Shown: positions 44,144-46,450 of the stretch, one piece after another
How the letters are laid out: each line of letters starts with the position of its first letter
Numbering within the stretch: the first letter of the stretch is position 1
NCBI RefSeq assembly: GCF_003344865.1
Contig: NZ_CP031165.1
Coordinates: forward strand, 3,849,910-3,913,909
DNA length: 64,000 nucleotides
DNA from: Euzebya pacifica
GTDB taxonomy: Bacteria > Actinomycetota > Nitriliruptoria > Euzebyales > Euzebyaceae
Direction of reading: 5' to 3'
Translations under genes and position numbers: made by a program
The notes under the pieces: model-generated
What the model was told of the DNA's origin: nothing
Database searches by the model: none
Seen by the model: the letters and a program-made list of their open reading frames with translations, nothing else

Positions 44144-44898
44144 CGCTGCAGCTCCGCGGTCAGCGTGTCGTTGGCCTGGGTGGTGGTCGACTGGCTGGCA
44201 GGGCGGTCGCCGGTGATGGAGTCGATGCGGCCGTCCCGCAGGCGCACGACCCGGTCAGCCCAGGCCGCTTGCGCCGCGTCGTGGGTGACCACGAGCGCGG
44301 CCGCGCCGTCGTTGCAGCGGTCGCGCAGCAGACGCATCACGGCCTCGGCGGTGACCTCGTCGAGGGCGCCGGTCGGTTCGTCGGCCAGCAGCAGCCGGCG
44401 GCTGCCGATCAACCCGCGTGCCACGGCAACGCGTTGCTGCTCGCCGCCCGACAGCTCGTCGGGGTAGCGGTCGACGACGTCGGGGTGCAGGACCTCGCTG
44501 AGGATCGACACCGCTGCAGCCCGTGCCTCGCGGACCGAGACCCCGTCGAGCTCCAACGGCAACGACACGTTCTCCGATGCCGTGAGGGTCGGCAGGAGGT
44601 TGCCGTGCTGGAAGACGTAGCCGACGTGGCGCCGACGCAGCTCTGCCAGCCTGGCCGGCCTGCAGGTCGACAGGTCCTGGCCCTCCACGACCACCGCTCC
44701 CCTGCTGGGTTGGTCGAGGCCACCCGCGAGGTTCAGGAGGGTGGACTTGCCCGAGCCGCTGCGGCCCATGACGGCGACGAGCTCGCCGGCCCGGACGTCC
44801 AGGTCGACGTGGTCGACCGCGGTGACGGCGGTGCTGCCGGCACCGTGGATGCGGGTCACGTCGTGCATGCGCAGCACGACCGGTCGGTCGGTGATCAT
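44140..44898 (-). CDS. ABC transporter ATP-binding protein (LolD/MacB type)
   Basis: The 252-aa ATPase has a Walker A motif (GRSGSGKST), a Q loop (GYVFQHGNLLPTL), the ABC signature LSGGEQQRVAVARGL, a Walker B block (LLLADEPTGALDEVT) and the H loop (LVVTHD). The ADEPTGALD form is characteristic of the MacB/LolD group that pairs with FtsX-type permeases. It lies between padR and the permease, overlapping each by 4 bases, so the three genes form one translationally coupled operon. Confidence 0.97.
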   Translation of the reverse strand: MITDRPVVLRMHDVTRIHGAGSTAVTAVDHVDLDVRAGELVAVMGRSGSGKSTLLNLAGGLDQPSRGAVVVEGQDLSTCRPARLAELRRRHVGYVFQHGNLLPTLTASENVSLPLELDGVSVREARAAAVSILSEVLHPDVVDRYPDELSGGEQQRVAVARGLIGSRRLLLADEPTGALDEVTAEAVMRLLRDRCNDGAAALVVTHDAAQAAWADRVVRLRDGRIDSITGDRPASQSTTTQANDTLTAELQR

Positions 44899-45491
44899 CG
44901 GGTGCCCCCCTTGGGCGCGAGTGGTGCGGTGGTGTGGGTGCTCGTGACGGGTCTGTCGGTGGCGGGATCGGCGCGGTGGCCGTTGCCGACGGCATCGAGG
45001 CGTTGCTCGGCGAGGTCCAGCCAGTCCAGCTCTGCGCGGCAGGTCAGGATCAGCCGGTCCAGCTGTATCGCTTCCGCCAGCACCGGCGGCTGCTGGGCCT
45101 TGCGCCTGGTCTGGGTCTGGAGGACTCGCATCGTGGCATCACGCTGGGCGGCGATCACGCCCCGGGGGTCGTGGCCGGGCGTGGCGACGGCGAGGAGGAT
45201 CTTCATGACGACCTCGTCCCTGCCCTCCAGGCTCCGTGCAACCGGTTCGGCCAGCCAGCGGGTGAGGTGCTCGCGGCCGGTGGCGGTGATGGCGTAGGAG
45301 CGTCGCTCCTCGTCGTCGGCGTCGACCTCCTCCACCAGTCCGTCGCGTTCGAGGCGTTGCAGTGAGGTGTAGACCTGTCCGATGTTGAGCGTCCAGGCCC
45401 CGCCGGTGGCGTCCTCGAAGTCGGTCTTGAGCTGGTATCCGTAGCCGGGTGCGCTGGCGAGGAGTGCCAGCAGCCCGTCCTTGACGCTCAT
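44895..45491 (-). CDS. PadR-family transcriptional regulator
   Basis: The 198-aa protein from ATG 45491 has the PadR winged-helix domain (SVKDGLLALLASAPGYGYQL, then GGAWTLNIGQVYTSLQRLER and DGLVEE). A C-terminal helical dimerisation region (about 100-170) follows. PadR proteins usually repress an adjacent transporter operon until a toxic compound is bound. It is the first gene of the padR-ATPase-permease operon, and a promoter with an overlapping palindrome lies upstream. The open frame upstream of 45491 covers that promoter and is rejected. Confidence 0.95.
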   Translation of the reverse strand: MSVKDGLLALLASAPGYGYQLKTDFEDATGGAWTLNIGQVYTSLQRLERDGLVEEVDADDEERRSYAITATGREHLTRWLAEPVARSLEGRDEVVMKILLAVATPGHDPRGVIAAQRDATMRVLQTQTRRKAQQPPVLAEAIQLDRLILTCRAELDWLDLAEQRLDAVGNGHRADPATDRPVTSTHTTAPLAPKGGTR

Positions 45492-45521
45492 GGGTGATCC
45501 CCTGTCGATGCCGTGCGGTCC

Positions 45522-45575
45522 GTATGGATACCGCGCATGCATCCACAGTATGCATACCAGGTATGCCGGGTGCAA
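45522..45575 (-). promoter_or_regulatory. padR operon promoter with embedded operators
   Basis: On the minus strand TTGCAC (45570-45575) and CATACT (45547-45552) form a near-consensus sigma-70-type promoter with a 17-bp spacer. The spacer contains the perfect palindrome GCATACC-T-GGTATGC (45552-45566). It overlaps a second palindrome, GTATGCATAC (45548-45557), that covers the -10. A third short dyad, GTATGGATAC, lies at 45522-45531 downstream of the start point. PadR autorepression at these sites is the simple reading. Confidence 0.82.
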
Positions 45576-45607
45576 GGAGTTGTTCGCGGACGCCCTTCCG
45601 GTGGGTG

Positions 45608-46450
45608 TCAGCCGCCGGTGATCAGGGCACGGAGCTCGTCGTGCACGGCTGGCGGCGAGGCCAGGAAGTCCGTGGTCACGGTGGTCACCGGGTTGCCCTC
45701 GACATCGGTGACCCGGGCGCCGGCCTCCAGCACGATCGTCAGCCCCGCAGCCACGTCCCACGGGCTCATGCCACCGGCCCATGACGCGTCGATGACCCCG
45801 GTGGCGACGCTGGTGAGGTCAGCCACCGAGCAGCCCTGCATGCGGGTGCCGAGCGCGTTGCCGACCAGCGCGAGGTAACCGGCGCGCATGCGATCCGGGC
45901 CGCCCCAGGCCTCGGGGGCTCGCGCCGTCAGCGCGTAGCACATCAGCGTCCGGTCGACCCGGTCGACGGTCGAGGCGTGGATCGGCACGCCGTTGCGCGT
46001 GGCGCCCATGCCTCGGGCAGCGCTGAACAGGGTCCCGTGGCGAGGCATCACGATCACGCCGACCAGCAGCTCGTCGGCGGGGCCGGCCAGGCCGATCGAC
46101 ACACCCCAGTCCGGCAGGCCCTTGAGGAAGTTGGTCGTGCCGTCGATGGGGTCGACGTACCACCGACGCGCACCCTCGGTCGGCACCGACGTCGGGCCCG
46201 TCCCCTCCTCCCCCACCACGGCATCCTCGGGAAACGCCTCGACGAGACGTCGCTTGACCAGCGCCTCGACCTGGCGATCGGCCTCGCTGACCAGGTCGGC
46301 GTGGCCCTTCTCCTCGGTGGCAACCCCTCGGTGGTACCAGCTCATGGCGAGGTCACCGGCCTCCACGGCGATGGCCGTGGCCACCCCTCGCGCGTGCTGC
46401 AGCGCGGGGGCGTCGGTGCGGGCGGGGGCGGGGCTGGAGGTGCTGCTCAC
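45608..46450 (-). CDS. Inositol monophosphatase family protein
   Basis: The 280-aa protein has the metal-binding motifs of the family: VVGEE, WYVDPIDGTTNFLKGLP and MSPWDVAAGLTI. The substrate may be inositol phosphate, a sugar phosphate or pAp-like nucleotides; the motifs do not separate these. In actinobacteria such enzymes can supply inositol for mycothiol and phosphatidylinositol. It lies 12 bp downstream of ispG on the same strand, so the two are probably co-transcribed. The start is ATG 46450. Confidence 0.95.
   Translation of the reverse strand: MSSTSSPAPARTDAPALQHARGVATAIAVEAGDLAMSWYHRGVATEEKGHADLVSEADRQVEALVKRRLVEAFPEDAVVGEEGTGPTSVPTEGARRWYVDPIDGTTNFLKGLPDWGVSIGLAGPADELLVGVIVMPRHGTLFSAARGMGATRNGVPIHASTVDRVDRTLMCYALTARAPEAWGGPDRMRAGYLALVGNALGTRMQGCSVADLTSVATGVIDASWAGGMSPWDVAAGLTIVLEAGARVTDVEGNPVTTVTTDFLASPPAVHDELRALITGG

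Follow-up and report, generated by a model that had tools for sequence, protein, structure and literature searches.

In Lactococcus lactis, the PadR-like autorepressor LmrR also represses the adjacent ABC multidrug transporter genes lmrCD. In this system, the operator lies in the promoter region and is bound by two LmrR dimers, and compounds bound by LmrR lower its affinity for the operator several-fold (PMC5428041). The lmrCD operator given there is ATGT-N10-ACAT. ATGT/ACAT is also named as the canonical PadR operator motif in PMC3506622, and the operators described in these two papers consist of ATGT/ACAT with a spacer of 8 to 10 nt.

The locus analyzed here lies in a 64,000-nucleotide stretch of the Euzebya pacifica genome (the window). 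It resembles LmrR-lmrCD in that a PadR-type regulator is encoded beside an ABC transporter and the putative operator lies in the promoter region. With high confidence, the element upstream of padR serves as promoter and operator of a padR-ATPase-permease operon under autorepression, and PadR dimers would occupy an array of ATAC-N3-GTAT dyads on it.

The padR operon and its promoter region

Analysis of the gene order revealed a compact operon. The start of the ATPase gene overlaps the padR stop by 4 nt and the permease start overlaps the ATPase stop by 4 nt, and by these overlaps the regulator and ABC genes form an LmrR-lmrCD-like module. The PF03551 score places the regulator in the PadR family, well above the curated cut-off (Table 1). 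MacB/LolD-type models scored best for the ATPase, each below its own cut-off. The intergenic region between padR and the preceding gene, which encodes an inositol-monophosphatase-family protein on the same strand and ends at 45608, comprises 116 nt.

An earlier note on this DNA had described TTGCAC-N17-CATACT upstream of padR-ATPase-permease, with the palindrome GCATACC-T-GGTATGC in the spacer and GTATGCATAC overlapping the -10 element. Every letter described was found on the minus strand: the spacer between the hexamers is 17 nt long (45569-45553), the palindrome is a perfect dyad with 7-bp arms and 0 mismatches, and GTATGCATAC overlaps CATACT. The -10 element is followed by 55 nt up to the padR ATG. 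The note had also placed a further short dyad downstream; it exists, but it is better described as two further copies of the same dyad at 13-bp pitch. The full array reads GCATAC-CTG-GTATGCATAC-TGT-GGATGCATGC-GCG-GTATCC and thus consists of three dyads with a pitch of 13 bp.

Table 1. Features of the padR operon and its upstream region in window coordinates
Feature	Position	Strand	Basis or remark
-35 element TTGCAC	45570..45575	-	sequence
-10 element CATACT	45547..45552	-	sequence
Putative operator dyad 1, GCATACCTGGTATGC	45552..45566	-	perfect 15 bp; within spacer, touches -10
Putative operator dyad 2, GCATACTGTGGATGC	45539..45553	-	1 mismatch; 13 bp downstream, over -10
Putative operator dyad 3, GCATGCGCGGTATCC	45526..45540	-	2 mismatches; following 13-bp register, predicted start point
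Seventh half-site CCATAC, array end	45522..45527	-	sequence only; weak
padR, 198-aa PadR-family regulator	44895..45491	-	PF03551, 66.1 bits (cut-off 27)
ABC transporter ATPase, 252 aa	44140..44898	-	PF00005
FtsX-type permease, 886 aa	41483..44143	-	PF02687, two stretches

The description of the promoter as near-consensus was too strong. TTGCAC matches TTGACA at three of six positions and CATACT matches TATAAT at four of six (sigma-70 consensus, 7/12 in total), and a sigma-70 scan of 45300-45800 revealed no site of at least 9/12. Scans of the same interval for terminators and for Rfam families gave no match. When the 116-nt region was shuffled by mononucleotides 3000 times, 82 of the shuffled sequences contained a palindrome with arms of at least 7. 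Because an equally long palindrome is present in 92 of the 1102 tiles of the window and the hexamers match at just 7/12 positions, the observation by itself is modest evidence. When the window was scanned with the triple dyad, the array scored 3 mismatches in 32 positions; the runner-up was the same array shifted by one register (8 mismatches), and the best place elsewhere had 11. The best score among the other 110 padR loci introduced below was six mismatches.

The closest relative of the PadR protein (67% identity) comes from G050, a genome of the class that belongs to a different family, and no PadR of this type was detected in the three other genomes of the genus (G001-G003) at E 1e-30. 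The operon is patchy in distribution and would have been gained or lost. In a plasmid collection, 42 records matched the protein, the best with 52.5% identity. The linear Streptomyces plasmid pSM17A, typed as mobilizable, carries padR, ATPase, and FtsX permease genes in the order seen here (L166:4001-8345).

Recurrence of the dyad upstream of related padR genes

The comparison comprised 111 padR loci: 80 from a profile search (L038-L117), 24 from a phylum search (L140-L163), six class-level relatives (L009-L014), and the window. The profile was built from seven PadR sequences, the window's included, and the 80 loci are the best of at least 572 relatives; their sources include Actinomycetota and three bins labelled Chloroflexi. 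The phylum search revealed a padR match in 60 of 396 genomes; 6 of its 30 loci repeat genomes already counted, the window's included. The region from about -150 to +8 relative to the padR start was read. The loci are best matches rather than a random sample, and the counts are not independent because many loci come from congeners or other close relatives.

The core ATACNNNGTAT (ATAC-N3-GTAT) was present exactly upstream of 103 of the 111 padR genes and with at most 1 mismatch upstream of 107. Six scrambled palindromes with the same letters, used as a control, were found exactly in 0 to 1 loci and within 1 mismatch in 0 to 2. In the rest of the same loci, 923,518 positions yielded 17 places that match the core with no more than 1 mismatch. 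The longer GCATACNNNGTATGC was found with at most 2 mismatches in 83 of 87 loci (L140-L163 left out), against a background of 18 such places in 845,301 positions. Judging from these counts, the palindrome is raised above chance by the array together with its recurrence in relatives. The earlier note had presented the site as a rare case in which promoter and operator can both be read from the sequence; in one sense this does not hold, since related promoter-operators are widespread in Actinomycetota.

Two cores per locus were most frequent (71 loci), followed by one (18), three (17), and four (one locus); four loci (L011, L013, L147, and L160) contained none. The pitch between successive dyads was 13 bp in 69 of 108 cases, 21 bp in 11, 14 bp in 6, and 15 bp in 6. 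Because the core persists when the pitch varies and also where a single copy is left, we infer that the dyad unit is ATAC-N3-GTAT and not GTATGCATAC. Three dyads all at 13-bp pitch were found in the window alone among the 111 loci, and the Micromonospora loci L103, L112, L113, and L117 have a single dyad only. In nine Actinomadura loci (L052, L067, L077, L082, L083, L085, L099, L102, and L111), a third dyad is located 20 to 21 bp upstream of the tandem pair, beside the -35 element.

The padR relatives L011, L012, and L013 have GGTTAC/GTAAC-type or mixed dyads upstream, and in L011 and L013 dyads of the GGTTAC/GTAAC type replace the ATAC core. These dyads possibly reflect a switch of operator specificity. 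Comparison by eye of the recognition helix with the half-sites (ATAC versus TTAC, L011 and L013) revealed no clear covarying residue.

The promoter hexamers recur as well. CATACT was found upstream of 87 of the 111 padR genes. In 66 of these 87 loci it is preceded by TTG at a spacing of exactly 17 nt, while each other spacing from 12 to 23 occurred in 0 to 3. TTG lies outside the dyads and therefore speaks for the promoter independently of them. The gap between the -10 element and the start codon is 8 nt at 51 of 67 TTG-N17-CATACT sites and 6 to 9 nt at 59 of 67, so the transcripts of these relatives would be leaderless or nearly so; the corresponding distance in the window is 55 nt. In L143, L145, and L146, from genomes of one genus, the second dyad is completed by the start codon.

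Downstream of padR, an ATPase was matched on the same strand in 80 of 86 relatives (E <= 1e-5 for ATPase and permease, short matches as in L013, L058, L060, and L109 included), at a distance of 1.9 kb in L093. In two of the six loci without such a match (L072 and L085), the sequence ends less than 750 nt from the padR start. A permease was detected in 59 of the 86 relatives, several loci ending too early for one to show. The wider loci of L147 and L160, in which no dyad is found at padR, are L167 and L168. In both, padR is the last gene of the operon and an ATPase is matched on its strand some 3.6 kb further upstream; three dyads are located upstream of each ATPase match (-3737, -3711, and -3680 relative to padR in L167; -3821, -3802, and -3789 in L168). 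Beyond these dyads, one further one-mismatch place was found in L167 (-4929) and none in the 9.5 kb of L168. Of the two, L168 alone gave a permease match; L167 has a long open frame whose end lies 19 nt upstream of padR. In L056, L070, L079, and L114, the dyad is kept with no ATPase match across at least 4.4 kb downstream. The operator appears to go with the operon and not with the padR gene itself, and the dyads at the operon head (L167 and L168), together with those kept where no ATPase is matched, point to autorepression of the operon that contains padR.

In Arthrobacter sp. SPG23 (L114:5001-5540), where padR has the dyad and no ATPase match follows, the next long open reading frame resembles a carbon-starvation-type membrane protein, as judged by eye from the translation.

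Predicted regulation and alternative readings

The 6.37-Mb genome that contains the window was searched with GCATACNNNGTATGC. Dyad 1 was the only place with 0 mismatches and dyad 2 the only one with 1; at 2 mismatches, dyad 3 and 35 other places were found, compared to 30 in the control. The similarity of these two numbers means that further regulon targets are not claimed, and a wider regulon in this genome was set aside. In the window's genome, its own operon appears to be the only target of the switch.

The strict tandem pattern ATACNNNGTATGCATACNNNGT was found at 19 places among 41 genomes of the family of genome G247, one per genome in 19 genomes (three read on both strands), and its backward-read control gave 0 places in the same 41 genomes. 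Eighteen of the 19 places are located 2 to 5 nt from a PadR match whose first residue is 1 or 2; the remaining one (G448) precedes a partial PadR match (residues 58-170) by about 170 nt. Since 38 of the 41 genomes have a PadR match, the strict form is absent from 19 of these 38. A stricter tandem pattern occurred at 2 places in the 396 phylum genomes, each with a padR match some 20 nt away, and is absent from 58 of the 60 padR-positive genomes, the window's included. The strict tandem pattern is thus specific, as far as these genomes go, but not sensitive: the sites adjoin padR, yet many genomes with padR lack them.

These distributions bear on the question of which protein uses the dyads. The dyad is defined by its sequence alone and could serve another regulator, e.g., a global one, while PadR acts elsewhere. 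This assignment is improbable, as a global regulator is expected to have many sites, whereas the tandem pattern occurs once per genome upstream of padR in 19 genomes (18 directly, G448 with the partial match) and the window's own genome has no other place with 0 or 1 mismatch. The dyad also stays in L056, L070, L079, and L114, where padR is open and no ATPase is matched.

The AlphaFold model of PadR (pLDDT 89.2) has N-terminal helices at residues 3-11, 18-28, and 37-49, strands at 53-56 and 65-68, and later helices at 93-103, 109-133, and 138-169. Members of PadR subfamily 1 (AphA/PadR-like) are long proteins with a helical C-terminal dimerization part. The 198-aa protein matches Vir_act_alpha_C with 22.4 bits, exactly the cut-off, and its best sequence match by profile is AphA (1yg2, "gene activator AphA"; E 4.2e-17). 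This match would fit a PadR that activates the promoter, as AphA does at its targets, instead of repressing it. Activation is likewise improbable. Activators are usually located upstream of the -35 element, whereas the dyads cover the spacer, the -10 element, and the predicted start site, where binding would block the polymerase. LmrR, moreover, acts as a repressor both on its own gene and on those of the transporter (PMC5428041).

That the palindrome is due to chance, or belongs to an RNA structure or a terminator of the preceding gene, is scarcely credible even though palindromes with 7-bp arms are present in many window tiles (92/1102). The core dyad is found in 107 of the 111 loci, against almost none for the scrambled controls, 45300-45800 contains no terminator-like site and no Rfam match, and at the 51 sites with an 8-nt gap between -10 element and start codon little of the dyads would be transcribed ahead of the gene.

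Autorepression by PadR, as proposed in the earlier note, is strongly supported by the way the dyads accompany padR operons of this type and overlie the promoter. The comparison of loci gives good support to a predicted role of PadR as a local autorepressor, and the motif is very probably the site where PadR shuts off its own gene and the adjoining transporter. The most likely mechanism, with LmrR as precedent, is that PadR dimers block the polymerase and a ligand frees the promoter. A PadR dimer would bind each dyad, and neighboring dimers would fill successive 13-bp registers. The bound array, extending over spacer, -10 element, and predicted start, would exclude RNA polymerase, and a low leak of the operon would supply repressor. 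A PadR ligand, probably an exporter substrate or a sign of envelope stress, would release PadR, and repressor and exporter would be turned on together. The earlier note had suggested induction by a toxic peptide or drug that the transporter would export; the sequence itself points to no particular ligand or substrate, and this part of the proposal has less support than autorepression.

A broader proposal is put forward tentatively, at somewhat less than even confidence: a phylum-wide PadR lineage may read a tandem ATAC-N3-GTAT code, mostly at 13-bp pitch, with dimers bound next to each other as a cooperative array, leaderless or near-leaderless mRNA in the relatives, and an extended and moved array in the window. 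If so, operator, -10 element, start point, and start codon would be fused in about 40 bp, and the window's species would have extended the array to three dyads and shifted it 47 bp upstream. For PadR-ABC operons of actinobacteria, of which a large group is concerned, the dyad would define the operator at the level of sequence. With one strict site per genome, as far as seen, it might offer ready reporter constructs for identifying inducers and perhaps exporter substrates.

Comparison with known PadR systems

Searching the PDB with the PadR model revealed Rv1176c from Mycobacterium tuberculosis (8ioi) as the best match (Z 14.8 over 167 residues, rmsd 5.5, 26% identity). The match to Bacillus subtilis PadR with operator DNA (5x11) covered 90 residues, with Z 12.8 and rmsd 1.9. 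VanR (5z7b and 6lg2) belongs to the PadR family, like the window protein, and the titles of PDB entries name p-coumaric acid (5y8t) and vanillate as ligands in PadR/VanR structures. The canonical PadR motif is ATGT/ACAT (PMC3506622). As a candidate for the site studied here, ATGT-N8-ACAT was rejected: when up to 1 mismatch is allowed, the window contains 8 matches, none of them within 45491-45607. Exact ATGT/ACAT matches in the 111 loci numbered 0 for N8, 0 for N9, and 1 for N10; with 1 mismatch there were 5, 3, and 3.

Among the matches listed for the open-licence literature (titles and abstracts; subscription papers lie outside this scope), no paper describing an ATAC-N3-GTAT operator was found, and the motif strings retrieved no PadR paper by title or abstract in that literature. 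The approach itself is not new, because the general tool Snowprint uses inverted repeats that are conserved between homologues to predict operators (PMC10858194).

Compared with LmrR, a protein of about 116 aa from the short subfamily, the window PadR is long (198 aa), and its permease is of the FtsX type, unlike the LmrR-lmrCD system. The lmrCD operator is ATGT-N10-ACAT, whereas the array described here consists of tandem ATAC-N3-GTAT dyads. Autorepression of PadR-ABC operons is already known; the operator, judged by its sequence, appears to be a new variant.
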